Shown here piece after piece: positions 1-20,405 of a DNA stretch of 64,000 bases. The notes below the pieces were generated by a model. That model searched no databases. It saw only the letters and a program-made list of their open reading frames with translations, and was not told where the DNA came from. The stretch lies in the NCBI RefSeq assembly GCF_025641885.1, contig NZ_JAOTQN010000001.1, positions 1 to 64,000 on the forward strand, in the 5' to 3' direction. Each line of letters opens with the position of its first letter. Position 1 is the first letter of the stretch. The DNA comes from Pyrobaculum sp. 3827-6. GTDB lineage: Archaea > Thermoproteota > Thermoprotei > Thermoproteales > Thermoproteaceae. The position numbers were made by a program, and so were the translations under genes.

Positions 1-3000
1 ACACCCGCCTCATGTACGCCAGCCATGAGTGCTCCATTCCGAATCTGCGGAAGTACTCAAAGGACTCCCTAAGCACCTCCCTTCTAGCCTTCTCGTCGCC
101 CTCCCTCGCCGCCTTGACGGCCTTCTCCAACAGCTTAAGAGCCCACGGCTCTGCGGCCATTGGCGTCAAGGCGGAGACGACGTAGACGTCTCTATACGCC
201 GACTCGGCCATCTTCTCAGTTTTCAACACAGCGAGCCTTTCGGCCAGCCCTTGCCTCGCTACGTGCGGCCTGACCGGGGCGCCTCTCTCAAGAGGCGTTA
301 CTCTACCTACATACTCCTCGACGCCCAGCGTCAGCTCCTTCACGGGAGGCCTCAGCATCCTCTCCGCCTCCTCAGGCTTCACCGCGCCTATGGCCACGGC
401 CCTGGCAACGGCCACGGCGCGTAGCGTCGGCAGACTCGCCCTAATCTCGTCCACAGCCAAAGCCCTGGCGAACCTCCTCGCGTCGTATGGCACCGGGCGC
501 GACAGCCAGTACTCCTCCCACAGCGCCCAGAACTGCTCAGCGTGTCTGAGGAACCTAGCTCTGAGTGAGGGGTCTACCACAACTCTCTCGCCCTCTATCC
601 TAGCGCCAACTAACAGCTCAGCCGCCTCCCTCGCAGTTCTAGGCTCCACCCCCGTGATTTGTCTGAAGAACGCGGCGAATTTGGAGAAGGCCCCCATGTG
701 CATCTCTAGAAACGGCTCGTATACTCCCCTCACCAGCCTCTCCACGTCTCCAACCACCTCGGAGACGGCCCTCCTCACCGCCTCCTCCCTCGACACGCCG
801 CCTCTCATCAGCTCCTCTACGCTTTTCGTGATTTCGCGCTCCCAGTCCTTAACCGCCAGCCTTCTGATGAGCTCCATGTAGGCTTGTCTAGCGCGCTGGA
901 CCGCCTCGCGCTCTATCTCCCTCATTTTCTGAGCCACAGCGAATTCCTCAACACGCTCGGCGACTGCTCTGGCCTTAGCCGCCGCCCTCCTCGCCAGGAT
1001 GTACTCCCTAAGAGCCATGAGCTCCTCGTACCTCTCCCGCGTAATTCTGCCCTCCAAATACAGCCTTCTGAGATACGCCGGGTTTATCAACGCCACCCAC
1101 CTCGGCTTGTCGTCTAGATGCCAGAGTAGCGTGTAGTAGAGCCATGGGTGGCGCCTAGCCACTTCGTCCATGAGGGCGTCTATGGCGTAGTCAACCTTCG
1201 GCAAAATCCTCCTAAGCAGGTGGATTAGGTCCCCTCTTGTGTACTCATGCACCGTCTTGGCTACTCTATACCCCACCTTAGCCGCCTCGTAGGCGGCCTT
1301 CGCCGCCTCTTTGGCAACCTCGGCGGCTCTTCTGCCTCCCCTCGCCAGAGCCTCCTCGGCCCTCCTCAGCCTCCGCCACACAGCCTCCTCGATGCGCCTC
1401 CTCACCTGCTCATTCACCGCCTCCGGGTGTACGCCGAAGCGCCTCTCCACGTACTCCCTAGCCCTATCCCTATACCGCCTTGCAATGACAGCCCCCTTCA
1501 GCGCCAGGCGCCTAACTAGCCTTATCGAGGCTCTCTTTATCGGAGAGCCCATGAACCTCGCCAGCCGGGTGAACCACTTAGACTTCAGCATAAGGCGGAT
1601 TTGGAACCAGAAAGCCAGCTCCTGCACCACGTGTACAGCCAGCCTCATGAGGTACTGCCCAAACGACGGAAAGCCAAACACAGCAGAGAGCACCTCGAGA
1701 ACGACGACGGGCGCGAACACCGCCACGAACAGCGCCACGAAGAGCCTCCCCCATATCTCTGAGAAAGCCCAAGGTATGTTCAGCGTAAACCCCACGTCCC
1801 AGATAGAGACACCCCACCTCTTGTCAGGCTTAGGCATGGGCGGGGTCTGCGCCGGCACGTACGGAAGCGCCACTGTGTTATTCCACGGGATTGGCCAGCT
1901 GGCGGCTAGAGAGGCGGGAGGAGGCGGGGGCGGGTTGTTCATAATCCACCTCCACCTCTGGATCCACACCCCGATGAGCTTACGCGTGGTGTTTGAGTCT
2001 CCCATTGGAAAGTATACAAGCCAGGTGGAGTTTCCGGGGTAGAGGACCACCCGGCCGTACGCCAGCTTGCTTCCGTTGCCCGGCCTCCAGTCGAAACGGA
2101 CGCACGCAACATAGAAGTTGTACGGCGAGTAGCCCCTCGGCTCTGTCTCTGGCATTGGGTGGAAGACCCTGGGCCTCACCGCCTCTTGGTAGTATCGGTA
2201 GACAGAGGCGGCGGGCTCCACCTTGTCAACCGGGGCAAACATTCTGAGAAAGTTTAGATACGCCCGGCTGTAGTTCCCGCTGGCGAGGAGGGCAAAGAAG
2301 AGGTCGCGGTTCACCCGGGTCATGTTCCCCGCCGCCTTCGGCACCAGACTCCACTTGGGCTGGCCGGCCGCCATGACGAAGGTAGAGCACTCCTGGTCGT
2401 ACTCTGCGCCTCTCAGCAGGTTTATCAGCTCGACGTTGCCCTCCTTTGTGGGGGCTTCGTCGTAGGTGTCTGGCAACTGGACGCTTCTCGCGTCTGCGGA
2501 GAGGGCCACTCCGCCGAGCCAGGCGAAGCCGTACACATATGCGGAGTTTCGCTGGACGTCCCAGAAGATGATGCGTTTGTATACCGTTTTGTTCTCCTCT
2601 GTGCAACTTGCGCCGCTGGGCGGCTCTCCGTTGCTCCACTTGCCGTACTTCTCCTCCTTCGTCACCGTCCAGTTGCGGTATGTAAAGGCCACGCGGAGCC
2701 TCTCCTCTCTCCTACCCTCAGGCACCCACGGCCTTCCGTAAAGCGGCACAGTTAGATTAGCCGCCGAGGGCTTCAGCACCTTCTGGTACTTCGGCTCCTC
2801 CCACTCCTCCCGCGAGGTGGAGCACCACTTGTCGCACCAGCAGTAGCCAGTGGGGTCACATGTCCAGCCACAACACCAGGTACACACCTTAGTCCAATTG
2901 TAGAAGTCCAGCGAACCGCCCTTCTGGGGCTTACCGGCGTTTGGCACCTGGATTGTGAAGTTGGAGTGGGTGGGCTTCGTCGCCGGTTTTGTGTAGTTGG

Positions 3001-4399
3001 TGGCGTTCAGCCCGACGTCGTACCTCAACACTCCCCTCTTCGCAGTGACGTTTCCGCCTTTGTAGGCCTCGGAGGCGGGCGGCACCAGCCAGCCCCATAC
3101 GCCTACATAGCCGGCCCTCGTCTCGTTGAGGAGGGTTTTGTTGTTGTAGGTCACAGTGATGTTTACGTCTGCCGTCAGCATCTTCCAGAAGTCTTGTGGG
3201 CCGGCGTATATCCTGGCCCAGGGGAGGAGCTTTTTGTAGAAGTCGCATTCAGCTTTCTTCATCTTGTCCATCCACTCCTGCGCCGATACGTTGCCCAACA
3301 TGGCGTTTCCCACCGCCGCTCTGTAGTAGGGCTCAAGCATGGAGTAGTCCGGACACCAGTATAGGGTCTCCACCTTACGCGGAACGTCTAGCCAGGTGTG
3401 GACTATGTAGGTGCGGCTCTGCCCGAGGCCGGTCCAGTTCTTGACGCCCACCAGCGTGGGCGTCCACCAGCCGGCGGCTACCCAGTCCGAGCCGTTCTTC
3501 GCCAGCGATGAGAAGAAGTCGAGGGCATGCTTCAACGTGGTTTTGTTAAAGAGGGCGATGGGGTAGGCCGATCTGTTCAGCTCAATGAGTGCCTCTCTCA
3601 CCTGTGAGAGGCGCACCGTGGCGTTGTACCTCAGCAAAGCTATGCCGTCCCCCTCCACCGCCAGCGCCGTGTATATCTGGGGCTCCGGCTTGGGGGCTTG
3701 GTTAGCCCACTGGCTTGTGGCGCCCATCCACTGCAGAAGGGGGATGCCCTGCGCCGTCGTGTAGGCGCCGGCGATGGTGGCTACGTAGAGGAAGAGGCCG
3801 ACTCCAAACAGAAGGGCCCCCAGACCCCTCACCCTCGGCAGTAGCATTAACAACATGCCGAGGAAGAAGAGGGTGGGGACCCACGTCTCTGCTATTTCGC
3901 CGAGCCAGTGCATGATGTGGTAGGTCATCATCATGCCGGTGGCTACGTTGTAGCCGGTGGCGGCTACGTGGAATATCGCGTCGGCGATTTCGTAGACGCG
4001 CATGGCGGTGGCTGTGACCGCCAGCGAGGCGCCTCCGGTGAGAGGCGCCAGAAGCACTCCGAATAACACCGCCGCCAGCGCCGCCGTCATGGCGGCCGCC
4101 GCCCCCTCAATGGCGTAGGCAAAGACCAGCGCCGCGTTATACGCAAGATCGAAAGCCTCCTTCATACGCTTTACGCTTTCCTTGAGGACACCCTCTACGT
4201 CGTAGAAGCCGTAGAGGTAAACGGGGGTGGGGGCAAAGGGAGCCACCAGCCTGAAGGCGAAGTCCACCACGAAGGGGGTGAGCAACACGAGGCCTAGGGC
4301 AAAGAGAGGAAAGTACCACTCCTCGTCTCCCCTAATGAACAAGAGGTACAAAGCCGAGAGGACGCCTACTAGGAAGAGGGCCTCGGTTAGGGGTATCAT
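1..4399 (-). CDS. Giant membrane-anchored surface protein of a Ted-like DNA-exchange locus (partial)
   Basis: One uninterrupted frame runs from ATG at 4399 to the left edge of the window, giving at least 1466 residues with no stop, so the C-terminus is missing. Residues 1-215 hold about six hydrophobic segments. Residues 230-860 look extracellular: many N-x-S/T sequons and a cysteine cluster near 503-528 (motifs CTWCCGW and CWCDKWC). A proline run precedes another membrane helix near 878-905. The remaining ~560 residues are charged, Arg/Glu-rich and probably helical in the cytoplasm. The start overlaps the stop of the preceding gene (ATGA), so the two are likely translationally coupled. Lying in the same operon as a pilin, it may be a channel or scaffold of the pilus machine. 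That role is inferred from context; I do not recognise the family. Confidence 0.85.
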   Translation of the reverse strand, partial: MIPLTEALFLVGVLSALYLLFIRGDEEWYFPLFALGLVLLTPFVVDFAFRLVAPFAPTPVYLYGFYDVEGVLKESVKRMKEAFDLAYNAALVFAYAIEGAAAAMTAALAAVLFGVLLAPLTGGASLAVTATAMRVYEIADAIFHVAATGYNVATGMMMTYHIMHWLGEIAETWVPTLFFLGMLLMLLPRVRGLGALLFGVGLFLYVATIAGAYTTAQGIPLLQWMGATSQWANQAPKPEPQIYTALAVEGDGIALLRYNATVRLSQVREALIELNRSAYPIALFNKTTLKHALDFFSSLAKNGSDWVAAGWWTPTLVGVKNWTGLGQSRTYIVHTWLDVPRKVETLYWCPDYSMLEPYYRAAVGNAMLGNVSAQEWMDKMKKAECDFYKKLLPWARIYAGPQDFWKMLTADVNITVTYNNKTLLNETRAGYVGVWGWLVPPASEAYKGGNVTAKRGVLRYDVGLNATNYTKPATKPTHSNFTIQVPNAGKPQKGGSLDFYNWTKVCTWCCGWTCDPTGYCWCDKWCSTSREEWEEPKYQKVLKPSAANLTVPLYGRPWVPEGRREERLRVAFTYRNWTVTKEEKYGKWSNGEPPSGASCTEENKTVYKRIIFWDVQRNSAYVYGFAWLGGVALSADARSVQLPDTYDEAPTKEGNVELINLLRGAEYDQECSTFVMAAGQPKWSLVPKAAGNMTRVNRDLFFALLASGNYSRAYLNFLRMFAPVDKVEPAASVYRYYQEAVRPRVFHPMPETEPRGYSPYNFYVACVRFDWRPGNGSKLAYGRVVLYPGNSTWLVYFPMGDSNTTRKLIGVWIQRWRWIMNNPPPPPPASLAASWPIPWNNTVALPYVPAQTPPMPKPDKRWGVSIWDVGFTLNIPWAFSEIWGRLFVALFVAVFAPVVVLEVLSAVFGFPSFGQYLMRLAVHVVQELAFWFQIRLMLKSKWFTRLARFMGSPIKRASIRLVRRLALKGAVIARRYRDRAREYVERRFGVHPEAVNEQVRRRIEEAVWRRLRRAEEALARGGRRAAEVAKEAAKAAYEAAKVGYRVAKTVHEYTRGDLIHLLRRILPKVDYAIDALMDEVARRHPWLYYTLLWHLDDKPRWVALINPAYLRRLYLEGRITRERYEELMALREYILARRAAAKARAVAERVEEFAVAQKMREIEREAVQRARQAYMELIRRLAVKDWEREITKSVEELMRGGVSREEAVRRAVSEVVGDVERLVRGVYEPFLEMHMGAFSKFAAFFRQITGVEPRTAREAAELLVGARIEGERVVVDPSLRARFLRHAEQFWALWEEYWLSRPVPYDARRFARALAVDEIRASLPTLRAVAVARAVAIGAVKPEEAERMLRPPVKELTLGVEEYVGRVTPLERGAPVRPHVARQGLAERLAVLKTEKMAESAYRDVYVVSALTPMAAEPWALKLLEKAVKAAREGDEKARREVLRESFEYFRRFGMEHSWLAYMRRV

Positions 4400-5305
4400 T
4401 CGACAGATATTCTCTCTGGTATCTTGGTCATGGCGTATGTAATGGCGGCTGTCAGCGCCCCGGCCATGGTGAAGGCTAGGGCCGCCGCGGCGGCTATGTT
4501 TGCGGCCGGCACCACTGCGTTCAGCACGGCGCCGTAGTTGACGGGGTAGCCGAAGGAGGTAATCTCGATTCTCCTCACGTAGTCTGCGTACGCCGCCAGG
4601 GCGGGGGGCATGGCCATGTTGAAAGCCGCGATGACGGCCCCCAGCAACTCAAGCCTCTCCACGGCGATTAAAATCGCGGCTAGGCCGGCGAGGACTAGTA
4701 GGCCCGTCGAGAGGAGGGAGGCGGCGTAGGCGGTGGCTAGGGACAGCATTGCCCCGTTGGCGGCTCCGCTAAACGGCATGGCCACCTGGAAAAGGCCCAT
4801 GGAGAACGGCGAGGTTACGCCCAGCATGCCGGTGGCGGTGGTAAGGCCGAAGAGGAAGCCGTAGGCATCTACGTACCGGCTGAACTTCTGCTGAAAGACA
4901 GAGGCGGCGCAGTTAAGCGCCTTGGCGCCGGCTGTGAGATAGGCGTCTATGTCGAACGACGGAGCCAGGTCGAAGTACTTGAGGCAGTAGGGCTGGAGGG
5001 GCTTGCTCCCCGTCTGGCTGGCCGCCGCCTCCACAGCCTCAAGAAAGCCCCTAACGCCGAAGCCCACCAGCGCCGTGGAGAGCATAACCGCGGCGAACAA
5101 CAGCCCGGCGATTAGGGCTCTGTACAGAGTGTGGCGGGCCTCCTGCGGCGAACAACAGCCCGGCGATTAGGGCTCTGTACAGAGTGTGGCGGGCCTCCTC
5201 CCTCTCCCTAGCGCCGCCCAGGGTATACAAAATCGAGGCGTAGAGGCCGTAGATGAAGATGATGGAGGAAGAAAAAAGGGTTATGATTTCGGGAGTGGTT
5301 AGCAT
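4396..5305 (-). pseudogene. Polytopic membrane protein (VirB6/CedA-like candidate) split by a 55-bp tandem duplication
   Basis: Reading starts at ATG 5305 (MLTTPEIITLF...), which overlaps the pilin stop codon by one base (TAATG). After residue ~54 a perfect 55-bp tandem duplication (5090-5199) shifts the frame and the ORF ends at 5051. A second frame, open from TTG 5100 to 4396, carries the rest. Deleting one repeat copy joins them exactly into a 284-aa protein with about six hydrophobic segments and no soluble domain. Multi-pass proteins next to a pilin gene are typical of the VirB6/CedA component of conjugation-type machines; that assignment is inferred. Alternatives to a true mutation are an assembly error or a reversible slippage switch. 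The downstream piece could still be made from TTG 5100. Confidence 0.75.
5090..5199. repeat. Perfect 55-bp tandem duplication
   Basis: Positions 5090-5144 and 5145-5199 are identical, base for base. The unit is 55 bp, not a multiple of three, and sits inside the membrane-protein gene, where it breaks the reading frame. The bases flanking each copy differ, so the repeat is exactly 55 bp. Perfect identity points to a very recent event or an assembly artefact. Confidence 0.95.
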
Positions 5306-5859
5306 TACCAGAACCTCAGCGCATTGGACGCGTCTACTATGCTTTTGATTAACACCTGGCTTAGGAAGTTCTTCACGGTGTCTAATGGGTTAAGCTGGCT
5401 CTGGACGTTCCACGCACTCGCCGCCAGGTTTACTCCAAGCACCACGAGGCCAACTGCGAAGGGCGACAGTATCATAGCCAGCAGTAGCCACTTGTACTTG
5501 TCTATCAAGTCGTTGATGTAGCCCCACCTCGCCCAGGAGGCGGGGGCTAGTTTCGACATTACGAAGTAGTAGATGCCGAAGATTATCAACGAGGCCCACC
5601 AGGCTATGCCCCATATGGCCATGAGGGCGCCGGCGGCCGACTGGACGCTCTGAACCGCGCCGCTTCCGAGCACGAGGTCCCTACCTTGACTAACGCCGCC
5701 TCCGCCAGTGGCGTTGGCGGCGGTTGTGGTGGTGGTCTGCTGGGCGAGTATGGGCACCGCCAGCACAAGCAACGCCAGCGCGGCTATTGCAAGCTTCTTA
5801 GCCTTCTCCCCAGCTGGCCTCTCCTTGTTTTCTATCTGGGGTGTGTTTTTCGGGGGCAT
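5305..5859 (-). CDS. VirB2/TedC-like conjugative-type pilin precursor
   Basis: 184 aa from ATG 5859. A basic N-terminus is followed by a hydrophobic stretch (about residues 21-39) ending in PILAQQ, a plausible signal-peptide cleavage site, then a low-complexity TTTTTAANATGGGG segment. Two long hydrophobic helices follow at about 72-101 and 122-147 with a short charged loop (DLIDKYKW) between them. This layout, a signal peptide plus two transmembrane helices joined by a small loop, is that of VirB2-type pilins. Conjugative-type pili in Pyrobaculum calidifontis are reported to be built from such a protein (TedC). The gene is first in an overlapping set with two membrane-protein genes. A T-tract element centred 27 nt upstream of the ATG is the probable promoter. 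Confidence 0.7.
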   Translation of the reverse strand: MPPKNTPQIENKERPAGEKAKKLAIAALALLVLAVPILAQQTTTTTAANATGGGGVSQGRDLVLGSGAVQSVQSAAGALMAIWGIAWWASLIIFGIYYFVMSKLAPASWARWGYINDLIDKYKWLLLAMILSPFAVGLVVLGVNLAASAWNVQSQLNPLDTVKNFLSQVLIKSIVDASNALRFW

Positions 5860-5880
5860 GTACGCCTTGCTCGGGAGGGC

Positions 5881-5891
5881 GGAAAAACCTT
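5881..5891 (-). promoter_or_regulatory. T-tract promoter element AAGGTTTTTCC upstream of the pilin gene
   Basis: On the minus strand AAGGTTTTTCC is centred 27 nt upstream of ATG 5859, where a TATA box would sit for a leaderless transcript. The same element occurs at matching distance before other genes of this locus (8725, 16746, 17897, weaker at 7156). Confidence 0.5.
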
Positions 5892-5970
5892 ACATATCCC
5901 CTAAAGTTCCTCCACGGGCTGGGCTGTGGGTGGCGGCTTGTGGAGTTACGTGTGTTGGATATGTGGTGTC

Positions 5971-6183
5971 TTACCGCCTTCTTTTTACGACTATGATCCA
6001 GATGTTGTCATACGCCTTCCTCTCCACAACCCCGCCTCCTGCGGCCCTGCCCCTCCTCCTAACGGTCCTCTCCGAGACGCCGAGGAGAGAGGCCACCTCC
6101 TCTACGGAGAGCCCCCTCTCCAGAAGCTTGACGGCGGCCTCCCTCAGCTTTTCACAGCAGAGGCGGCCCGGGGTCCTGGGCAT
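5971..6183 (-). CDS. Small helix-turn-helix protein
   Basis: 70 aa from ATG 6183. Residues 13-45 read as a helix-turn-helix of the homeodomain/resolvase type: KLLERGLSVEEVASLLGVS then RTVRRRGRA. The C-terminal half is basic (KRRR end). It lies upstream of the pilin operon in the same orientation and may regulate it or bind DNA in another role. No enzymatic domain is present. The size and clear HTH make it a likely real gene. Confidence 0.6.
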   Translation of the reverse strand: MPRTPGRLCCEKLREAAVKLLERGLSVEEVASLLGVSERTVRRRGRAAGGGVVERKAYDNIWIIVVKRRR

Positions 6184-6213
6184 GTGGATAGTTTTCTACG
6201 GGTGGATAAGGGT

Positions 6214-7131
6214 CTATTGTTTGATTTTGAAGTAGGCTTTTAGTGTCTCTAGGTAGTCTGCCCCCGTTTCTATCATCACCACCACTGGGTTTCCCCAGAG
6301 GCCCAGCGCCGTGAGCATCTCCGCGGCGGCGTCGTCGAAGGGGGCTTCAGCCCTCGGGGCCAGCTCTCTGTAGGCCTTTAAGACGCTACGCTGAGGCTCT
6401 CTGTCAAAGTCCTCCCACTTGTAGATGTTGAGTACCCCCCTCGCCAGTCTGTAGGCGGCCTCCCCCACGGCCGCCAGTGTGGGCGGCCACGGCGCATAGA
6501 CGCCGCCGAAGAGAAGCCAGGCGGCCGCAGTTGCCATGACGTGCTCCACCCTCGGCTCGCCTAGCAGAACCACCGAGTCTCTGTAGACGTAGGCCTGGGA
6601 GAGGAGCGACTCCGCCGCCGGGTTCCCCAGGCTCTCCAAGAGGAGGAGCATAGCCGTCCTCAAGTTCTCCACACGCCCCGCCCTCCCAACGCGCCTCCAG
6701 TCCAGCTCCCACGGCTCCACGAGGGCGTAGACATAGGCCTCCACATCTCTCCTCTTCCCAGTCCTAAACTCTTGAAATCTTTGGGAAAACCTCAGGGTGA
6801 TCGCCTTCACAAGAGCCACAGCCTCCGCCGCCCTAGTCCTGTCTGTCAAGATGTAGCGTGGGTAGTAGACGCGCCTAGGCGAGGCCATGGGAAGCGGGGC
6901 GCAGCGCTCCGACTTGGCGATCGGCTCGGTGCAGTCGGCGGACTGGGCCACCTGGTCAAGGTGGCGCTGTCTACACATCTCGTACACCTCGTAAGAAGAC
7001 AGGTCTCTGTACGTCCGCCGCAGGTCGTCGCAGAAGAGGGGGCAGTTGGGGTATCTCGACGCCAGCTCTCTCACCACCCACCTAGCCCTAGCCTCGGCCT
7101 CCTCCTCCGGGAGGCCCGCGAGGCGGAACAT
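6214..7131 (-). CDS. Unknown protein of the Ted-like locus
   Basis: About 305 aa. I chose ATG 7131 (MFRLAGLPEEEA) because a GTTTTTCC element lies about 29 nt upstream; an in-frame GTG at 7155 would add eight residues. The protein is mostly helical and soluble, with several cysteines in the first 85 residues (CPLFCDD, CRQRH, DCTEP, ERCAP) that could bind metal, and a later segment with two mildly hydrophobic helices (residues ~195-235). No P-loop or catalytic signature was seen. It sits between the pilin operon and the hairpin array in the same orientation. Function unknown. Confidence 0.65.
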   Translation of the reverse strand: MFRLAGLPEEEAEARARWVVRELASRYPNCPLFCDDLRRTYRDLSSYEVYEMCRQRHLDQVAQSADCTEPIAKSERCAPLPMASPRRVYYPRYILTDRTRAAEAVALVKAITLRFSQRFQEFRTGKRRDVEAYVYALVEPWELDWRRVGRAGRVENLRTAMLLLLESLGNPAAESLLSQAYVYRDSVVLLGEPRVEHVMATAAAWLLFGGVYAPWPPTLAAVGEAAYRLARGVLNIYKWEDFDREPQRSVLKAYRELAPRAEAPFDDAAAEMLTALGLWGNPVVVMIETGADYLETLKAYFKIKQ

Positions 7132-7155
7132 CCGCTTTAAGAGGCCGCAGACCAC

Positions 7156-7167
7156 GGAAAAACAAAA
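7156..7167 (-). promoter_or_regulatory. Weaker T-tract element (GTTTTTCC)
   Basis: On the minus strand TTTTGTTTTTCC lies about 29 nt upstream of ATG 7131. It matches the right half of the AAGGTTTTTCC element found before other genes of the locus and argues for the downstream ATG rather than GTG 7155. Confidence 0.3.
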
Positions 7168-7176
7168 CGCCCAGTT

Positions 7177-7518
7177 TTAAACCTCTCCACACGCCACTTC
7201 AAACTCCTCCAGAGCGTCCCTAACCGCGCGGGGTGGGTAGGCCCACTCCCCAAGGGCCTCCGCGGCGAGGGGGTCTCTCACGGAGTCCCTCGCTCTTCTG
7301 GCCAGCTCCACGAGGCAAGCCACCTCCCTCAGCACAGCCCTCAGCTTCTCCACGCAGTCCCCCTCTTTGTTTGCGGCTTCTCGGGGTTCCCACCTGCCGA
7401 GGTACACTGTCTTCTTCCTCCCGCCGTAGTAGAGAGTGGCGTAGAGAGAATCGCCTCGGCGCCAGACGTAGACAGACACACCCCCCACAACCCCCTCGGC
7501 AACCCTCTGGTAGGCCAC
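7177..7518 (-). CDS. Small unknown protein with N-terminal beta-rich segment
   Basis: 113 aa from GTG 7518. Residues 12-43 alternate in a beta pattern (VSVYVWRRGDSLYATLYYGG, then KTVYLGRW), reminiscent of small DNA-binding beta-sheets on integrases and element proteins. The remainder is helical with two cysteines. It is downstream of the hairpin array and codirectional with its neighbours. No family was recognised, so any DNA-binding role is only suggested by the fold pattern. Confidence 0.5.
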   Translation of the reverse strand: MAYQRVAEGVVGGVSVYVWRRGDSLYATLYYGGRKKTVYLGRWEPREAANKEGDCVEKLRAVLREVACLVELARRARDSVRDPLAAEALGEWAYPPRAVRDALEEFEVACGEV

Positions 7519-7580
7519 GTCCTACCGTCTAAACAAGTCCTCACCTCCGGCGGCGGGGGCAACGCGCCCCGCGGCCCCGA

Positions 7581-13082: not shown

Positions 13083-13870
13083 CAGCAAGTTAACTGGATG
13101 GGTATCCCCACTAATTGTAGCAGTTGGTTTGCGTAGTGTGAGAAGACTGGGCAACCTTTGCCGAAGTAGTCCACGGCGAACTTCGGCTTCTTCCCGTCGT
13201 CTAGCCGTATAACGGCGAGTCTGGCGGGGGAGGCGTTTACCACGTAGCCCTCGTAGCGCCATATGGAGTACAGCTCCTCCCGCTTAGGAGGCTTGACGAC
13301 AGCCCGCCTGTCACAGCCGAGGACCAGGGCGTATCCCCCAGACCTAAACAGCTGGGCGATGTGCTCAATAGAGCCGCGTAGTATAAAGCCGTAGGTGCAC
13401 AGCTGTTTCTCCACATAGCCGGCGATGTAGAAGCGGTAGTCCGGCTCAGTCCACCTATCCGCCCTCTTCACCCTCCGCAACAGATAGACCTCTTGAGGAG
13501 ACTTCACCACAACCACGTCGCCTAGGCGGGCGTACGGCTCGTTCACCGGGAGCCAATACACCGAGAGGAAAAACATCCTCTGCCTAATCGGCAGAACCCA
13601 GCCGGGCTCCACGGGGGGCGGAGGCGGGGGCGGCGTGTTCTGCATAAAGCCGGGCTCAGGAGCGTCAGTCTCGAAGCTGGCGGGGGGCTTCCTGGGCGCC
13701 GCCGGCGCGGCCGGGGTCTGCGGGCGGGAGCCGTCTCCTCCGAGTATCCTCCGCAGATACTCGGCCATGTCGACAGTCCCCGTCCCGCGCGCCGTCTCTT
13801 CTCTGGCCAGGGTCTGGGTCTCTCCGCAGAGGTCGGGCCTCCTCGCGCAGATCTCTCTCGGGTCGGTCAT
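13082..13870 (-). CDS. Unknown protein with Pro-rich linker
   Basis: 262 aa from ATG 13870. The first ~90 residues are charged then Pro/Ala-rich, with a run of seven prolines near 80, so probably a flexible linker. Residues 90-262 form a compact beta-rich domain with five cysteines (QLCTYGF, LGCDRR, KGCPVF, final C). It overlaps the VirB4-like gene by four bases and may dock onto that ATPase, though this rests only on gene order. Confidence 0.65.
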   Translation of the reverse strand: MTDPREICARRPDLCGETQTLAREETARGTGTVDMAEYLRRILGGDGSRPQTPAAPAAPRKPPASFETDAPEPGFMQNTPPPPPPPVEPGWVLPIRQRMFFLSVYWLPVNEPYARLGDVVVVKSPQEVYLLRRVKRADRWTEPDYRFYIAGYVEKQLCTYGFILRGSIEHIAQLFRSGGYALVLGCDRRAVVKPPKREELYSIWRYEGYVVNASPARLAVIRLDDGKKPKFAVDYFGKGCPVFSHYANQLLQLVGIPIQLTC

Positions 13871-15828
13871 TTTAGCCGCGGGTCTAGGGGTATTTTGACG
13901 TGGTATTTCAAGTTGCGGGGTTTTATGCGCATGATGGCCATGGCGTAGGGCTGTCCCGAGAGGGAGGCCTCCCTCGGCGTAACCGTGGTCAGAAGGTAGG
14001 CGGTGTCTGCCTCGTCTAGGTAGAGGACGTGGGCCAGCGGCTTGACAACGTCCTCGCCCCCGCCGAAGAGGAGCTGGACAGAGGCGCTCCGCAACAGGTC
14101 ATGCTCCAGCTGAGTCTCCAGCTGGAGGACAAACCAAATGGCCAGCCCGTACTTCCTCCCGCCCATCACAATCTCCTCAAGCATAGAAGAGAGTGTGGAG
14201 TAGCCCGGCACGCCCCTCTTAGAGATCAGCCTAGCCTCGTCAAAGACAATGACGGTCCTCACCCTCTCCACCCTCTCATCCACGTGCTTTGCGAGGAGGT
14301 ACACCAGCAAAACTCCGTAGAAGAAGGCCTGCAGCGCCGCGTCCTTCCTAGCCTTGTACACGCTGAAGACCACGTGCCTCCCGCCGACGTCCACAAAGCG
14401 GGGGCTGTAGCCAGCCATAGAAGCCATCCGCTCCAGCACCGCCTTCACAGCCTCCGCGTTCTCCCCCGCATCCAGCCCGTACTCCCCCGCCAGCCTCCTA
14501 AACCACATAGACCTGGACAGCACCTCCGGCATGTCCGACGGAAGCTCCTCCGGCACCTCCACCACCTGCGCCCCGTGCAACACAGCCCACTTCAAGTAGT
14601 CCCCGTGGGGGTCCACCACCACCACGTCTACGCCAGCCTCTGCCAAAACCCCGAGCCAGCTACCCACAGTCCAGGACTTGCCGAGGCCGGAGGCGCCTAT
14701 GACAACGCCGTGGACGGTGGGGAGGGCGTCTAGGTCGACGGAGACCGGCCTGCCGAATCTGTCGTAGGCCAGCACCACCTCCCTCCCCACCGCCAGGAGC
14801 TTCCCTCCGTAGAACATGGGGAAGCGGGAGAGGTCGTGGCTGAGGGCCTTCACCCCGTTTCTCAACGCCCAGAAGTCGTATGTGGCTATCCAGTCCTGGG
14901 TCATGTATATGGAGTGGAGGTCTTTGGAGCCGTATGGGTAGAGGAGGATGGGCCTCTCGTTGTACCTAGCCATCCTCTCCACGAATTCGGAGAGCTCCCT
15001 AATCCTAATCAGCCGCTTCCCCGTGTCCCTACCCTCGTAGACCTTGACGAACTTTTTGTGGACTACCTCTGGGGGCATGTCTGTGAAGGCCACCGCCCAC
15101 TTCTCCATCATTCCGAAGGCGGCGGCCTCCGCAGACGCCATGGCCTCCAGCATCTCCCGAGACGCCGGCAGGAAGGAGGCCCGGGAGACGTGCGACAGCG
15201 AGAGGAGGAGGTACGGCACTCTGTACCACCTCCTAACCCGTCTATAGACAAACAGCCACAGCGGTATCGCCAGCAGAAACCAGCCGCTTGAAATTAAGGC
15301 CAGGGGGATGAACAAAAGGGCGGTTAGGTAGGGCCACCTCCCCGGCTGCTTTCTGCTGGAGAGCCAGGGCTCCGCCTTGTTGAGGACGTAGTACTCTTTG
15401 AGGATTAGCTCTACCTGCCTAAGCCTCTCCGGCGCCAGCCGCCTCGCGGTGTAGCGTATGTATTTGCGGTCTCCCCAGACGAAGTACGCCACCCACTCGC
15501 CTCTCCTCAGCGACAGCTTTGCGTACATTTCGTGCAACCTCGGCGCCGCGGATATGCCGTATACCGAGTGTATAGGCTCGGCGCGCCAGAAGACGTGGTA
15601 GAGCCCGCGGCGGGGGTCGAAAGCCGCCTCCACCCCCGGCTCTCTATGAGCCACGCGAAGAGGCTCCAGAGGGGCGACCCTCGTGTGAATCCACACAAGC
15701 ACCTCCTCACCCCACGCCACCACGGGCAGTACCGCCAATAACGCCAGAGGCGGATACGCCTTGGCCATAATCGCTATCGCCAAGAGCGACAGGCCGAACA
15801 GCGCAAGGGTCTTGTCGTAGTAGTTCAT
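13867..15828 (-). CDS. Membrane-anchored VirB4/TedB (CedB)-like ATPase
   Basis: 653 aa from ATG 15828. Two hydrophobic segments at the N-terminus (about 9-41) and two more near 166-195 precede a HerA/VirB4-type motor domain. Walker A GASGLGKS lies near 376-383, followed by VDVVVVDPHGDYLKW. Walker B VIVFDEARL is near 526 and a conserved WFVLQLETQ segment follows. Membrane-anchored HerA-type ATPases power the Ced/Ted DNA import systems of crenarchaea and correspond to VirB4 of bacterial conjugation. With the pilin at 5305-5859, this is the best evidence that the locus is a Ted-like machine. Four-base ATGA overlaps on both sides point to one transcript. Confidence 0.8.
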   Translation of the reverse strand: MNYYDKTLALFGLSLLAIAIMAKAYPPLALLAVLPVVAWGEEVLVWIHTRVAPLEPLRVAHREPGVEAAFDPRRGLYHVFWRAEPIHSVYGISAAPRLHEMYAKLSLRRGEWVAYFVWGDRKYIRYTARRLAPERLRQVELILKEYYVLNKAEPWLSSRKQPGRWPYLTALLFIPLALISSGWFLLAIPLWLFVYRRVRRWYRVPYLLLSLSHVSRASFLPASREMLEAMASAEAAAFGMMEKWAVAFTDMPPEVVHKKFVKVYEGRDTGKRLIRIRELSEFVERMARYNERPILLYPYGSKDLHSIYMTQDWIATYDFWALRNGVKALSHDLSRFPMFYGGKLLAVGREVVLAYDRFGRPVSVDLDALPTVHGVVIGASGLGKSWTVGSWLGVLAEAGVDVVVVDPHGDYLKWAVLHGAQVVEVPEELPSDMPEVLSRSMWFRRLAGEYGLDAGENAEAVKAVLERMASMAGYSPRFVDVGGRHVVFSVYKARKDAALQAFFYGVLLVYLLAKHVDERVERVRTVIVFDEARLISKRGVPGYSTLSSMLEEIVMGGRKYGLAIWFVLQLETQLEHDLLRSASVQLLFGGGEDVVKPLAHVLYLDEADTAYLLTTVTPREASLSGQPYAMAIMRIKPRNLKYHVKIPLDPRLK

Positions 15829-16232
15829 GGCCTCGCCGCCCTCTCGGCCTCTTCTAACTCACCGCGCCACAGCAGATCGACAACTTTGGCTATGTCGGCG
15901 CCGGTCCAGGCGGCTTTGAAAATCACCTCGCGGCTTTTGGCGTCTTCCCAGAGCACAGACAGCTTACGGTAGCAGTCAAACACCTCGGGACACGTCGTAG
16001 CCAGATCGTACAGCTCCGGCTGGGTAGGCTCCACCCCCAGCTCCCTCATAGCCCTCTCCAGCGGAATGGTCCTAGGCCTCCACCTCTCCGGTGGAGGCTC
16101 TGGGATTCTAACCTTCTCCTCCGGGCTGAACTTAAGAGCCTCCTCCCTCTGCCTCTTCAAAATCTCCATAAGCTCCTCCCGGGGCGTCTTCGGCTTCTCG
16201 GCCTTCTCCGCCTTCTTCTTACGCCCTATCAT
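15825..16232 (-). CDS. Small charged protein between the ParA-like and VirB4-like genes
   Basis: 135 aa from ATG 16232 (MIGRKKKAEKAEK), which overlaps the preceding stop by four bases; the frame extends to 16358 but that part lies inside the preceding gene. It has a Lys/Glu-rich N-terminus, a Pro/Arg middle, and a helical C-terminal half (ERAMRELGVE, CPEVFDCYRKL). It could be an adaptor of the neighbouring ATPases. No family was recognised. Confidence 0.65.
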   Translation of the reverse strand: MIGRKKKAEKAEKPKTPREELMEILKRQREEALKFSPEEKVRIPEPPPERWRPRTIPLERAMRELGVEPTQPELYDLATTCPEVFDCYRKLSVLWEDAKSREVIFKAAWTGADIAKVVDLLWRGELEEAERAARP

Positions 16233-16723
16233 AGCCACTGGGCTATCTGCTTGAGGATTTTGCCTATCTTCCTTCTGAACCGCGTCAGCTCTGCGGCTAG
16301 GAGGGGGTGGAGGCCTTCGCGCATATACCACCCCACCTCTCTTACGTGGGGTATCCACCCCCTAGCCCAGGCCGAAAGCGCGCCGGCCTTGTTCACAACG
16401 ATGAAGTAGCCCCGCCTCTCCAGCGACTCCACGTCGATGCGCCTCAGATCAGTGGGCTCGAGGACTGCGACGTACTTGTCTGCGCTGGGTATGTTGTATA
16501 TCGAGGTGTCCACCACGGCGTACCTTGCCTTCATCTCCCTAGCCTCTGAGACGTCGGCGGCGAGGGGGACAACCCCCTTCAGCAACCTAGCCCCCGTCTT
16601 GTCGGGCGACGCGTCTATGAAGACGGCGCGCGCCGAGGCTAGGTGGAGGTAGAGAGCCAGCGACGTGGCTAGGAAGGTCTTGCCGGCCCCCAGTGGGCCG
16701 ATGACGGCCACGGTTTTTGTCAT
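16229..16723 (-). CDS. Short ParA/MinD-superfamily P-loop protein
   Basis: 164 aa from ATG 16723. Walker A is GPLGAGKT (9-16), followed by VFIDASPDKTGA (about 34-45), like the switch region of MinD/ParA proteins, and YAVVDTSIYN near 68. It lacks the signature first lysine of ParA and is short, with a basic helical C-terminus (FRRKIGKILKQIAQ) that could bind membrane or DNA. It may position or pace the pilus machine; this is inferred. A T-tract element is centred 28 nt upstream, inside the end of the preceding gene. Confidence 0.65.
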   Translation of the reverse strand: MTKTVAVIGPLGAGKTFLATSLALYLHLASARAVFIDASPDKTGARLLKGVVPLAADVSEAREMKARYAVVDTSIYNIPSADKYVAVLEPTDLRRIDVESLERRGYFIVVNKAGALSAWARGWIPHVREVGWYMREGLHPLLAAELTRFRRKIGKILKQIAQWL

Positions 16724-17034
16724 GTGGCCTCTAGACAGGTTGGGGGGAAAAACCTTGTAAGAAACCTCTCCACCTCTTCCAGCGCCTCGCCTACCAACCT
16801 GCCGTAGTCTGTTAACACGTAGACGCCTTCCAGCGCCGCCGCCTCGCGTCTAACGAGCTGGGGCCAAACCCGCCAGTCGTAGCGGAGGCCGGCGCACCTA
16901 ACGGCCTCTCTAGCCAGGGCCTCCAGCTCACCCGCCGCGGCCGGACCCCTCATCAACCTCCTAATCAACCTGTAGCGGATGAGCTCCCCCACCGGCGAGT
17001 AGACCTCAACCCACCCAACCGCGTACATAACCAA
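16720..17034 (-). CDS. Winged-helix-like protein, first gene of the nine-gene set
   Basis: 104 aa from ATG 17034. The pattern of two helices (GELIRYRLIRRLMRGP, AGELEALAREAVRCAG) and a C-terminal ALEGVYVLTDYGRLV strand-turn-helix resembles a winged helix. It opens the run of overlapping genes down to 10433 and may regulate it. The assignment is weak and the family was not identified. Confidence 0.55.
   Translation of the reverse strand: MVMYAVGWVEVYSPVGELIRYRLIRRLMRGPAAAGELEALAREAVRCAGLRYDWRVWPQLVRREAAALEGVYVLTDYGRLVGEALEEVERFLTRFFPPTCLEAT
16746..16756 (-). promoter_or_regulatory. T-tract element upstream of the short ParA-like gene
   Basis: AAGGTTTTTCC on the minus strand is centred about 28 nt upstream of ATG 16723. 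It lies in the 3' end of the preceding gene (codons for R-F-F), so an internal promoter and a coding coincidence are both possible. Confidence 0.4.
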
Positions 17035-17183
17035 GTCTTGCGAAAGAGGGGGATAAACATCACACAGATACGCAGAAATTTTAACCCCCTCCCCCCTAAT
17101 ACAGGAATAATAAATTTTCAGCGGACTCCCCCGTTTCCATTTCTGAAAATTGCGAATATATACCCTGTAAGAGAATTGTACTA

Positions 17184-17250
17184 GTGATGGTAGAAGGGGG
17201 TATCAGGACCCCCATCCGCTGATGGGTGATTGGCGTCGGGGTTTCTGAGG
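17184..17250 (+). ncRNA. Candidate box C/D-like small RNA
   Basis: A TATA-like run (AATATATA near 17154-17161) lies about 26 nt before GTGATGG (17184-17190, C-box-like). Then come a perfect hairpin GGGGGT-ATCAGG-ACCCCC (17196-17213), CTGA (17219-17222, D'-like), GTGATTG (17226-17232, C'-like) and CTGA (17245-17248, D-like). The C'-to-D gap is exactly 12 nt, the usual archaeal guide length, while the C-to-D' interval carries the hairpin instead. No ORF covers it. Confidence 0.4.
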
Positions 17251-17273
17251 TCCCTCATCCCCCATTACTTCTT

Positions 17274-17642
17274 TCAAAACCGAAATTTAAACCTGTCTCG
17301 TAAATACATAAGTAATACGGCTCTCTTTATAATATTAACAAGACTGAGAAGGTTTGTGTGTTCAGAAACGTTTTCCAGCTCGGCCACAGCCTCGGCTACT
17401 GTGTAGCCCTGTTTGACTTTTCTAGCGACGTACTCGGCGTATTTGGCGAGCCTCCCCCTCACGGATGAGATCAGCAGACGCCACTCCTCCTCCGCAAGCC
17501 ACACGCCCTGCTTAGCGGCTTTGAGGACTGCCTTGAGCATCTCCCTCTCAGAGACGCCCAGTTGCTGAGCTAGCTGGCAGATCCACTGCGCAGTAGCGGC
17601 GGTGAGGCCTCTCCTCATCGCCGTGTTCACTATGCGGCACAT
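17274..17642 (-). CDS. Unknown small helical protein
   Basis: 122 aa from ATG 17642, one base after the preceding stop. It is almost wholly helical (QWICQLAQQLGVSEREMLK..., RGRLAKYAEYVARKVKQG...) and ends in a hydrophobic/basic tail (LLMYLRDRFKFRF). It is the last gene of the 20405-17274 set. It may be a DNA-binding or adaptor protein of the ParA module at 17912-18610; not recognised. Confidence 0.6.
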   Translation of the reverse strand: MCRIVNTAMRRGLTAATAQWICQLAQQLGVSEREMLKAVLKAAKQGVWLAEEEWRLLISSVRGRLAKYAEYVARKVKQGYTVAEAVAELENVSEHTNLLSLVNIIKRAVLLMYLRDRFKFRF

Positions 17643-17643
17643 G

Positions 17644-17877
17644 TCACTTCTTGGTCAACAATATGAGGGCGAATTTGACGTAGGGGTCGCTCACCGAGGA
17701 GAGGATCTTGACGGCGTAGTCCTGGGGGATGCAGTTGACAATTCTCGTGGCGAGGTCCTCAGGCATCGACGCAATAGCCCTAACCAACAGGTCCACCCAG
17801 CCCTCGGAGGGGGTTTGCAGAGACTGAGCCTTCTCTTGTTGATCCTGCTGTCCCCTTAAGACACCTAGGTTTAGCAT
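17644..17877 (-). CDS. Small unknown protein downstream of the ParA gene
   Basis: 77 aa from ATG 17877. It has a Gln-rich N-terminus (GQQDQQEKAQSLQ) and then two amphipathic helices. A T-tract element is centred about 26 nt upstream, in the 34-bp gap after the ParA-like gene, so it probably has its own promoter. As a small gene directly downstream of a ParA it might be the partner (ParB/adaptor-like), which is speculative. Confidence 0.55.
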   Translation of the reverse strand: MLNLGVLRGQQDQQEKAQSLQTPSEGWVDLLVRAIASMPEDLATRIVNCIPQDYAVKILSSVSDPYVKFALILLTKK

Positions 17878-17896
17878 GTGTGGCGTGGGGAGGAGG

Positions 17897-17908
17897 GGAA
17901 AAAACCTT
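17897..17908 (-). promoter_or_regulatory. T-tract element in the gap after the ParA-like gene
   Basis: AAGGTTTTTTCC (one extra T) on the minus strand is centred about 26 nt upstream of ATG 17877 and lies outside any gene, which argues that the motif is not just shared coding sequence. Confidence 0.45.
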
Positions 17909-17911
17909 GTC

Positions 17912-18610
17912 TTAGCTTTTGATTTTAGTTAACAACTCCTCTACCGAGCGGCGGTTTTCTCTATCCCGCAGAATGGCGGCGGCTACGCTGTCTGCGTGGT
18001 ACTGCCTAATGTGGCCGACGTGCCTCAGCACGTAGGGGGTTATGCGCCTCGCCTGCAACACCTCCGACCTGTCTATCTGGTTGATGACAACAGCCGACGC
18101 GAAGCCGGTGTACCTGTTGTACTGCTCGGCCTTGACGTCTGAGACCTTCGACAACATGCGGCCGTCTCCCACAAACACTGTGTACAACCCAAGCTTCTGG
18201 AGGCTCTCCAGAAGCTCCGTCCTCAGCGCCGGGGTGGTGTCGATGACGACGGTGTCTACTGGTAGTTTCGTCTTGTCGACGAACTGGGGGAGGTACTCTA
18301 TCCACTCAAGGAGCGCCAGCTCCAGCTCCTTCACAACAGACTGGTCTTTTTGGTAAAGTTCCACCGCGTCGTATCCCGGCAGTATGTACAGCGTGGGGTT
18401 GACTTGGTGAACGTATATCTGCTTCCCTTGAAAGGGGGCGACCCAGCCGGGCCTCCTGGGGACTCTGAAGAGTTGGGAGAGCTCGGCCTTCTCCCAGTCT
18501 GCGTCTATGACGAGGGTGAAGCCTTTGGCTATTGACATCACGGTGGCCAGTGTGGTCTTCCCCACGCCTCCGTCTAGGGAGTAGACGACGGCGGTTTTTA
18601 CCGTCCTCAC
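17912..18610 (-). CDS. ParA/MinD-family ATPase
   Basis: 232 aa from ATG 18610. The P-loop is DGGVGKT (13-19). Switch region LVIDADWEKAEL (about 33-44) and VVIDTTPALRTELL (about 120-133) follow, with VVINQIDRSEV further on, as in ParA/Soj/MinD. The residue aligned with the ParA signature lysine (KGGVGKT) is Asp, which would normally impair cross-subunit catalysis, so activity may differ. The gene overlaps its upstream neighbour by four bases. It could partition an element or position the exchange apparatus. The ParA fold is clear; the role is inferred. Confidence 0.8.
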   Translation of the reverse strand: MRTVKTAVVYSLDGGVGKTTLATVMSIAKGFTLVIDADWEKAELSQLFRVPRRPGWVAPFQGKQIYVHQVNPTLYILPGYDAVELYQKDQSVVKELELALLEWIEYLPQFVDKTKLPVDTVVIDTTPALRTELLESLQKLGLYTVFVGDGRMLSKVSDVKAEQYNRYTGFASAVVINQIDRSEVLQARRITPYVLRHVGHIRQYHADSVAAAILRDRENRRSVEELLTKIKS

Positions 18611-19065
18611 GCCTCCTTCACTTCTACAGTGGATAAAGTTCTCGTAAGCACAGCCGCGAGGCGGTCTAGCAACTCTGTTACCGACCCCCCGCCTAGGGCG
18701 GCCTTGAGGGCGTCTCTCGTCTTTTTGTATGTGTATGCGGCGTAGGTGAGGAATACCGTGTAGGGGACCGCCCCCTCTCTGTGCGGCAGAATTCTGGCTC
18801 TAGCCGCCCCCAGCGCCCTCCTGTCCCCAGCCAGTCCCCCCAGATACTCCTCGAAAGCCGCCCTCACAACGCCTCCCCTGGCGTCCAGCACGGCGGCGAA
18901 GGAGGACAGGCACAGAGCCGTGAGGATAGGCGTCTTGTAGACGACGCTGTGGGCGCCCTCGGCCTTCATCCTACGCACACACCAACACCATGCGGAGGCC
19001 ATCTCCACCGCCAGCGCCCCAAGCTCCGAGAGAGCCCGCCGGGAGGGGGCGCAGCTCACAGCCAC
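18607..19065 (-). CDS. Unknown Ala-rich helical protein
   Basis: 152 aa from ATG 19065, overlapping the preceding gene by 10 bp and the ParA gene by 4 bp. It is helical with a mildly hydrophobic middle (SVVYKTPILTALCLSSFAAV) and cysteines near the start (WCWC). No motif was recognised. Its position in the overlapping set says it is coexpressed with the ParA-like ATPase. Confidence 0.55.
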   Translation of the reverse strand: MAVSCAPSRRALSELGALAVEMASAWCWCVRRMKAEGAHSVVYKTPILTALCLSSFAAVLDARGGVVRAAFEEYLGGLAGDRRALGAARARILPHREGAVPYTVFLTYAAYTYKKTRDALKAALGGGSVTELLDRLAAVLTRTLSTVEVKEA

Positions 19066-19664
19066 TCTCTAAGCCTCCTAACCCACTCCCCGGCCCTAGC
19101 CGCCAGCCTCTCCAACTCCCCCACGCCGAACTCCTCCAAAAGAGCCACAACAATCTCAGCCACGGCCCGCGCCGGCCTCACCCCGGCCCCCGCCAAAGCC
19201 CTAGCCACCGCCGACACCCCGGGGGCCGGCCCGCGCCAGCGGGTACCCACGGCCCGTAGAAGCTGGCGGTTCTCCGCCTCTCTCAGCGTCTTCAGCAGAG
19301 CCTCGGCGTCTCTCTCATCGTGTAGCCTCACGCCCAACGCGTCGAGAGCCCCGAAGTCTATTTTGTAGACGTCCAGCAGGCCGGCGCCTCTAAGCGCCTT
19401 CACCACGGCCCCCACCACCTCCTCGAAGCAGGTGGTCTCCACAACGGCGGCGGGCCTAAACTCGTAGCGGTCTGGCAGAAGCCTAGCCCTCCTCCCGCCT
19501 CCGCCCTTCTCCACAACGAGCAGAGCCCCCTCCAGCGACAGCTTGACGCCGCCCACCTCCACCACCAGCGGCGAGGACTGGCCTAGGTGGTACCCCGCCA
19601 CAACGTCCACAGCCTCTGCCCCAGCCACCTCCTCCACAGATGCCGGCCTAGCCTCGACGCACAC
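19056..19664 (-). CDS. Unknown protein of the ParA cluster
   Basis: 202 aa from ATG 19664, nine bases after the upstream stop. The first ~80 residues are beta-rich (VVAGYHLGQSSPLVVEVGG, LSLEGALLVVEKGGGGRRA) and the rest is helical (VARALAGAGVRPARAVAEI, ERLAARAGEWVRRLREW). There is no P-loop or metal motif. Function unknown. Confidence 0.55.
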   Translation of the reverse strand: MCVEARPASVEEVAGAEAVDVVAGYHLGQSSPLVVEVGGVKLSLEGALLVVEKGGGGRRARLLPDRYEFRPAAVVETTCFEEVVGAVVKALRGAGLLDVYKIDFGALDALGVRLHDERDAEALLKTLREAENRQLLRAVGTRWRGPAPGVSAVARALAGAGVRPARAVAEIVVALLEEFGVGELERLAARAGEWVRRLREWL

Positions 19665-19673
19665 GGCCGCTAT

Positions 19674-20405
19674 CTACGTCTCCAGCCCTTTACTGACGTA
19701 AAGGCCCGGAGCACTATCTAAATGCTCCGGCCCTCTACCAATATAAACGGCGTATAGCTTGAGGGCGGGTGGGGCGTAGACCGCCGACAGCCTGCCCAGG
19801 AGGTAGTCGGCCTCCGGCACAGCGCTGTGTCTGCAGTAGTAGATCCAGCTGGCCAGGGGCTGGAGGCTCCTTCTGTAGCCCCCCTCCCTTCTGTAGTACG
19901 CGGCGAGGGCCCAGGAATCCCCCGGCAGGCCCAGCGAGCTAACCAGCTCCTCGGCAATTCGGCAGAAGAACTCCCCCGGCCTCCTCACGGCTAGGCCCCA
20001 TGACCTCCTCCCCCGGGGGGCCTTTAGGGGGGCCAACCTGGCGAAGGCTGTGCACTGCCTGTTGTATACCTGGTAGAAGTTCTGCGGCTGGGTTAGAACC
20101 GCGGCGGGTCCGCACCTCAGCAGTACGTCCACCTCTCCGCCGGTGCCTACGGCGGCGAATTTGACGAGAGGCGCCGTGGATAAGACGCCGCTCTCTACAA
20201 AACGCCTGAGGGCGGGGGCGAATGGGCCTTGAGCCAGCGCGGCTAGGGGCTTTAGATAAGTCCTCAAAACCCAGGGCCTCTCCTCCACCGCGCGTCTAAG
20301 CGCATCCACGCCGCCCGCCGCCTCCACAAGCCTCTTGTACAGAGGCCCCAGTAGGATAGGCCACTCCTCCACCCGGGGGTGTACGAATAAGTGAAGAGGA
20401 GGCAC
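19674..20405 (-). CDS. Unknown protein, first gene of the ParA cluster
   Basis: 243 aa from ATG 20405. A TATA-like TTTATATTTT on the minus strand is centred about 25 nt upstream, fitting a leaderless start. The protein is soluble, mostly helical, with a segment LTQPQNFYQVYNRQCTAF near 105-122 and a Tyr/Trp-rich C-terminal half. No family was recognised. It starts the set that runs through ParA down to 17274. Confidence 0.6.
   Translation of the reverse strand: MPPLHLFVHPRVEEWPILLGPLYKRLVEAAGGVDALRRAVEERPWVLRTYLKPLAALAQGPFAPALRRFVESGVLSTAPLVKFAAVGTGGEVDVLLRCGPAAVLTQPQNFYQVYNRQCTAFARLAPLKAPRGRRSWGLAVRRPGEFFCRIAEELVSSLGLPGDSWALAAYYRREGGYRRSLQPLASWIYYCRHSAVPEADYLLGRLSAVYAPPALKLYAVYIGRGPEHLDSAPGLYVSKGLET

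Follow-up and report, generated by a model that had tools for sequence, protein, structure and literature searches.

Ted-type DNA-exchange genes of Pyrobaculum on probable mobile genomic islands

Does the Ted locus at the start of a Pyrobaculum contig occupy a fixed place in the chromosome, or does it travel? The Ced and Ted systems are cited as an example of a type IV secretion system (T4SS) tamed for chromosomal DNA exchange. We analysed 64,000 nucleotides of Pyrobaculum sp. 3827-6 (contig NZ_JAOTQN010000001.1, positions 1 to 64,000, hereafter the window), in which an earlier interpretation of the letters and their open reading frames, here called the sequence-only reading, had seen a single DNA-exchange locus joined to recombination and partition genes and ending at 20405. 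The locus is a Ted locus, but its island nature had been missed: it occurs in multiple copies whose ends are conserved, which have empty sites and which are inserted close to tRNA genes, and the unit runs on to 33777, where sequence collinear with the closed genome G003 begins. We consider it probable (roughly 70%) that this Ted-type secretion and DNA-exchange system is carried on a mobile genomic island of ~43 kb that resembles an integrative conjugative element (ICE). The assembly of the window genome (G000) comprises 13 contigs, several of which are cut inside islands.

The pilin, TedA, the TedB/VirB4 ATPase and the giant protein confirm the identity of the locus. As proposed, the pilin is of the VirB2/TedC type, matching the solved conjugative-type pilin of P. 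calidifontis (8dft_A) over residues 70-171 with E=2.2e-10. The pilin of genome G002 matches 8dft full length from residue 38 (E=7.5e-64), which is also where the published atomic model begins (PMC9905601), and G002 is therefore P. calidifontis or a very close relative. Identity between the window and P. calidifontis is only 31% for TedB and 31% for the pilin. TedB, correctly described as a membrane-anchored VirB4-like enzyme, is a HerA/VirB4-type ATPase by its family matches (Table 1) and is syntenic with the P. calidifontis VirB4. The multi-pass membrane protein is TedA-like, being homologous to the gene that immediately follows tedC in P. calidifontis and syntenic with it (seven homologues aligned), but its reading frame is broken by a 55-bp tandem duplication at ~5083-5197, so that the gene is a true pseudogene unless the assembly is at fault; a TedA profile found no relevant match among PDB sequences. 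The proposed giant surface protein is likewise present as a giant membrane protein, but the window frame is cut at base 1, whereas intact homologues span 4594-5058 residues, with N-terminal membrane segments followed by a large extracellular-looking part. In the copies analysed the last ~500 residues are homologous to PaRep2b proteins, and LAGLIDADG_3 scores above its cut-off (25.0 against 22.5 bits) in the copy belonging to the remainder of the window island.

The window genome contains five islands (E1 to E5, E1 being that of the window) and five TedB copies, the four others being 61-63% identical to the window protein and sharing its gene order. The closed genome G003, whose backbone is ~95-97% identical to that of the window genome (95.9% at the window flank from 33778), has three islands (G003a, b and c) and a giant-only copy (G003d, at 1203-1217 kb). 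We compared the sites of E1, E2, E3 and G003a, with the flanks of E5 and G003b set aside. The G003a island (2309932 to ~2351012; flanks 2309931/2351029) has an empty site in the window genome at C3:55513/55537, where contig C3 is uninterrupted. Conversely, G003 has empty sites for E1 (window 33778 / C5:8238) at a tRNA gene, 228675-228764, for E2 (C3:191499 / C5:163159) at circular position ~70307 and for E3 (C1:1406641 / C2:222231) at 1824160-1824220; E3 has ~50 bp of target sequence at each end, 24 bp of them a perfect repeat. E1 and E2 join contig ends broken inside islands, which explains these gaps in the assembly. No single universal target-site duplication emerged from a search of the four sites, with 13 bp at E1, ~50 bp at E3 and none clear at E2 or G003a. 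The compared sites are non-orthologous between the two genomes. The interval that carries Ted in P. calidifontis is 36.4 kb long and its orthologue in G003 and G005 only 2.5 kb; this Ted locus is also an insert. P. oguniense has Ted regions at 485-530 kb and 2420-0020 kb, both of them islands that P. arsenaticum lacks (PMC3558965, Table 5), and TedB is absent from 6 of 11 Pyrobaculum genomes.

The RadA-like, HerA-like, SWIM and first ParA-like (ParA1) proteins are 85-99% identical among copies of the G000/G003a/b type. For TedB there are two types, one comprising the window and G003a (96%) and the other the remainder (95-98% among themselves), with 60-62% across types. The pilin and TedA are most similar within one genome (the G003a and G003b pilins share 96%, against 74-82% to those of the window and contig C2), which points to gene conversion. 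The hypervariable g04, for which we found no family match, has 31-96% identity across copies, and the window and G003a, which share a TedB type, also share a g04 type; a specificity or exclusion factor is a possible role.

Both island borders are conserved. One is formed by orf120, a gene for 119 residues that faces outward, and the opposite one by the C-terminus of the giant, which faces outward likewise. Solo orf120-PaRep2b pairs with the same outward layout lie in G003 at 203.4-205.7, 326.9-328.9 and 1238.6-1240.7 kb. At 5 of ~11 right ends (E1, E4, G003c, the G003d solo copy and the P. oguniense 2429-kb copy) the giant or PaRep2b stop codon is 23-75 bp upstream of a tRNA gene, for which a simple uniform model, assuming ~46 tRNA genes in 2.4 Mb, gives a chance of ~4e-12. 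More generally, insertions recur immediately 5' of tRNA or protein genes. A TATA-like AAACTTAAAAA often follows the giant stop, and the element may in this way restore a promoter to the gene that it separates from its own. What appears to be a decayed island lies in P. oguniense at 2429-2435 kb, where a fragment of TedB remains and a PaRep2b-like end adjoins tRNA-Leu(cag). Within the window, 55284-55620 carries a divergent tRNA-Leu and intron-containing tRNA-Thr; it is at this place in G003 that the G003c island is inserted, with two tRNA-Thr-like copies in inverted orientation at its ends.

What travels with the Ted core is a conserved set of genes. The gene list and minus-strand order given by the sequence-only reading for 2-20405 proved real, with gene-by-gene matches and the order kept in the copies. 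The same order recurs in four further copies in the window genome and in three other genomes, so the set is not a product of chance. In G002 the order runs ParA-like, TedB, g13, g12, g09, RadA-like, HerA-like, SWIM, pilin, TedA and a 5058-residue giant; with nearly the same set in a P. calidifontis-type locus, the cassette is part of the archetypal Ted locus. The set is also present in the Thermoproteus-like genomes G011 and G014, and the RadA-like, SWIM, HerA-like, g12, pilin and TedB genes lie within ~40 kb in the Vulcanisaeta-like genomes (family f3) G033, G036 and G044; in the f3 genomes G020, G022, G023 and G031 TedB stands alone in the stretch examined. A comparison of relatives, which the sequence-only reading had set as its own test, thus bears it out: RadA-like and SWIM genes are associated with pilin and TedB in Pyrobaculum, Thermoproteus-like and Vulcanisaeta-like genomes, and the nuclease g09 stays beside pilin and TedB in Thermoproteaceae. 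Part of this linkage is not new: according to Beltran 2023 (PMC9905601), Ted loci have HerA and MinD/ParA genes, with a 'Rad50' in Pyrobaculum and Vulcanisaeta that is described as coating single-stranded tails; the literature that we consulted carries no report of a SWIM-RadA-nuclease cassette. The sole recombinase-family gene that we found at the P. calidifontis Ted locus encodes a Rad51/RadA-family protein. As coating of single-stranded tails is a Rad51/RadA activity and this is the only such gene there, the published 'Rad50' is probably the Ted-locus RadA-like gene.

The RadA paralogue was correctly recognised: besides Rad51 PF08423 it matches RadA/Rad51 chains in the PDB. All Pyrobaculum genomes examined encode a canonical RadA in addition, ~31% identical to the island protein, and most have a further paralogue away from Ted, ~48% identical to it; the island protein is an extra paralogue. 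Taken alone, the window SWIM protein scores weakly against PF04434 (16.2 bits, cut-off 19.6), and its assignment is borne out by the homologues, of which 6/9 match the SWIM family. The CxC and CxHxA (CTHxA form) signature is invariant across nine SWIM loci, with the final A of the motif in 8/9; this Ala is replaced by Ser in the G014 homologue and in P. calidifontis. In most SWIM loci the RadA-like gene is present too. The nuclease candidate g09 gave no match in sequence searches, its likeness to PIN proteins being one of fold alone: its AlphaFold model (pLDDT 92.8) has a PIN-superfamily fold nearest to GEN1, FEN1 and ExoIX (Foldseek against GEN1/FEN1, E=3.5e-4, probability 1.00, TM 0.53-0.59), and with its conserved acidic residues we predict it to be a PIN-superfamily nuclease. 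The second ATPase, g11, does belong to the FtsK/HerA superfamily, but 'HerA-like' is just one reading of it, as the TrwB coupling-protein model (TrwB_AAD_bind) matches 8/9 homologues against 3/9 for HerA_C, with DUF87 in 2/9; its comparison with PDB sequences returned nothing relevant. The two ParA/MinD-like ATPases are conserved in the copies, but their family matches are weak and sub-threshold. For g12 we obtained a low-confidence model with no significant PDB match and claim no function. From these families, a role of the cassette proteins in recombining or positioning imported DNA is plausible.

How, then, should the islands be read? Domestication is the published view of Ted; the system would then import chromosomal DNA in the service of repair, not of its own spread, and the copies would be in-genome duplications made by recombination between PaRep2 repeats. 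Homogenised pilin, TedA and giant genes within each genome, solo PaRep2b copies as dispersed repeats and recombination genes inside the Ted locus all agree with this. Yet instead of one fixed chromosomal locus we find multicopy islands at non-orthologous sites, intact empty sites, conserved outward-facing ends, one TedB type and one g04 type (96% each) shared by the window and G003a at different sites in different genomes, no TedB in over half of the Pyrobaculum genomes and a P. calidifontis archetype that is itself an insert, which makes domestication unlikely. The DNA-handling genes might instead be mere passengers of Ted, serving defence or anti-defence, like the variable cargo of the left arm and of the slot between g09 and the RadA-like gene, among it the BrxL/Eco57I-type genes and the NurA-HerA pair of G003a; we regard this as quite improbable, given that RadA-like, SWIM, HerA-like and g12 genes are kept with TedB and pilin across two families and, unlike cargo, have conserved signatures. 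It is also conceivable, if doubtful, that the islands are decayed remnants of ICEs, once conjugative and now mostly immobile and mutating. The window TedA frameshift, a HerA-like gene split in G003a and a giant split in G003c, the giant-only and solo PaRep2b copies and the P. oguniense TedB fragment speak for decay, whereas other copies (for example G003b and, as far as assembled, that on C2) have intact cores, and the occupation of non-orthologous sites in two genomes 95% identical implies that islands have moved since the two diverged. The window TedA break, the split G003a gene and the giant-only copy fit a mosaic of islands that recombine and have partly decayed.

Several observations weigh against mobile, ICE-like islands. 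Tyrosine integrase, considered as the mobility gene, was rejected: in a search confined to PF00589 among integrase families there was none in or near the islands, none in G003 or G002, and in G000 matches only at C1:672-674 kb and 727 kb. There was no relaxase family among the Pfam matches of window proteins, no circular or free island form in the assembled sequence, and no relative of TedB or of the TrwB/HerA-like ATPase in viral contigs. Relaxases are stated to be absent from archaea in PMC9905601. The E4 site and the G003c junction are rearranged, one copy alone has a LAGLIDADG match above the cut-off, three others staying below it, and PF07775 matches solo PaRep2b proteins only, not the giant. 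With TedA frameshifted the window copy may be dead; some of the insertions may be old, given how far certain homologous genes have diverged from copy to copy; and the function of the cassette is read from protein families only. Lacking an integrase, a relaxase and a circular form among our findings, we call the islands ICE-like and not ICEs, their discrete insertion with empty sites in relatives being as for an ICE.

Tentatively, and at slightly less than even odds, we go further and propose that Pyrobaculum Ted is not domesticated and is the transfer apparatus of self-spreading integrative elements. Their ends would be of a new architecture, formed by the 119-residue border protein and a membrane protein of 4.6-5 thousand residues with a PaRep2b/LAGLIDADG-like C-terminus; they would insert between promoter and gene, preferentially on the 5' side of tRNA genes, and bring their own relaxase-independent set of PIN/FEN-like nuclease, TrwB-like ATPase and RadA-SWIM pair. 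Under our main reading, that the Ted apparatus moves DNA follows by homology with Ted and the T4SS, and the following course of transfer and insertion is inferred. In the donor, the nuclease and the TrwB/HerA-like ATPase would prepare DNA and feed it to TedB/TedA and the TedC pilus, with the ParA-like ATPases positioning it in a VirC1-like manner. In the recipient, the RadA-SWIM pair, in a Shu-like role, would protect or load the incoming single strand. Insertion of the island would follow at a tRNA or promoter site, perhaps once its PaRep2b end has made a cut; by resupplying a promoter the island would let the target gene survive. To our knowledge, no relaxase, nuclease or coupling protein has been identified in archaeal conjugation. 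If Pyrobaculum Ted does ride mobile islands, the domestication account needs revision for Thermoproteales, and the nuclease, the TrwB/HerA-like ATPase and the RadA-SWIM pair are concrete candidates for the missing DNA-processing steps.

The remaining genes of the window island are listed in Table 1. The cargo slot at 9036-10412 differs by copy, holding a 468-residue protein with a weak trypsin-like match on C2 and a 766-residue protein in G003a, and the left arm of the G003a island has a HerA-like and NurA gene pair (L069:5698-8533). As island cargo in the window, a BrxL-like Lon protease/ATPase adjoins an Eco57I/PglX-like methylase, and the STAND-like protein, kept in several islands, possibly serves defence.

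Table 1. Features of the Ted island in the window (aa, amino acids; ORF, open reading frame)
Feature	Position	Strand	Evidence or remark
Island E1, right part	1..33777	.	rest off contig, ends on contig C5 ~7.9 kb; total estimated ~43 kb
Giant membrane protein, N-terminal 1466 aa (contig end cuts gene)	2..4399	-	homologue comparison
TedA-like multi-pass membrane protein	4396..5305	-	split: ORFs 5051-5305 (N-terminal part) and 4396-5100; 55-bp tandem duplication
TedC pilin	5305..5859	-	PDB 8dft match; signal peptide and two hydrophobic helices
g04, 313 aa, hypervariable	6214..7155	-	identity 96% to G003a, 31-59% to other copies
g05, small conserved protein, 113 aa	7177..7518	-	kept in copies
RadA/Rad51-family paralogue, island-borne	7771..8703	-	Rad51 PF08423 E=4e-21; Walker A GEYGAGKS
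Variable cargo slot, nuclease to RadA-like gene	9036..10412	-	here 112-aa membrane protein and 340-aa exported protein
PIN/FEN-like nuclease g09 (predicted)	10433..10849	-	conserved acidic D26, D56, E84, D110, D112
SWIM zinc-finger protein	10833..11417	-	Shu2/SWS1-type CxC..CxHxxA signature
g11, FtsK/HerA-superfamily ATPase	11395..12312	-	Pfam scan of 9 homologues
g12, conserved, fold unassigned	12309..13082	-	start set at M61 of longer ORF
g13, conserved protein, no assigned function	13082..13870	-	kept in copies and other genomes
TedB, membrane-anchored VirB4/HerA-like ATPase, 653 aa	13867..15828	-	DUF87 E=2e-10; HerA_C above cut-off
g15, conserved protein	15825..16358	-	tandem-duplicated in most other copies
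Short ParA/MinD-like P-loop ATPase	16229..16723	-	weak sub-threshold match; kept in copies; P. calidifontis counterpart
g17 and g18, small conserved genes	16720..17642	-	kept in copies
ParA/MinD-like ATPase	17912..18610	-	weak sub-threshold match; kept in copies
g20-g22, left-arm genes, fast-evolving	18607..20405	-	comparison of copies
AAA/TPR (STAND-like) protein, 1387 aa	21252..25415	-	homologous region kept in other islands
Cargo: BrxL and Eco57I/PglX-like methylase (BREX-like pair)	25556..30705	-	family matches
orf120, 119 aa, outward-facing border gene	33317..33673	+	recurs at other island borders and beside solo PaRep2b genes
Target tRNA gene, 13 bp of 5' end	33778..33790	.	complete tRNA gene on other flank, C5:7888

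Among the closest known systems is the P. calidifontis Ted (PMC9905601), which has the same core, nearly the same cassette and a homologous pilin (8dft); the window genome differs in having five copies, on islands with PaRep2b/orf120 ends. In the passages that we consulted the published account calls Ted 'domesticated' and makes no mention of SWIM, a PIN-like nuclease or mobility, and we found no report in the open-access literature of Ted on PaRep2b islands. The Ced system of Sulfolobales (CedA/CedA1/CedA2/CedB, CedD, CedE) has a common VirB2/VirB4/VirB6-type logic and a link to recombination, though according to the Ced and Ted papers their components have no recognisable sequence similarity; Ced, unlike the window Ted, has no pilin processing and no linked cassette. 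With bacterial ICEs and conjugative plasmids of Sulfolobales the Ted islands have in common that T4SS-type genes are carried on an island, that there are empty sites and that insertion is close to tRNA genes. They differ from these elements in having no identifiable integrase or relaxase, in inserting 5' of the tRNA gene and in that the C-terminus of the giant fusion forms one end. The likeness to the Shu complex (Shu2/SWS1 with a RAD51 paralogue; PMC6316741) lies in a SWIM-signature gene next to or near that of a RadA/RAD51 paralogue, whereas the putative SWIM-RadA pair described here is archaeal and island-borne, with Ser for the final Ala of the motif in two homologues. Finally, the island end is a homologue of PaRep2b, of the paREP2/PaRep2b family of Pyrobaculum, and the solo orf120-PaRep2b pairs share its outward orientation; PaRep2b appears in PMC3558965 only as repeats or putative transposons, whereas on the islands it is fused to a Ted-linked protein of 4.6 thousand residues.

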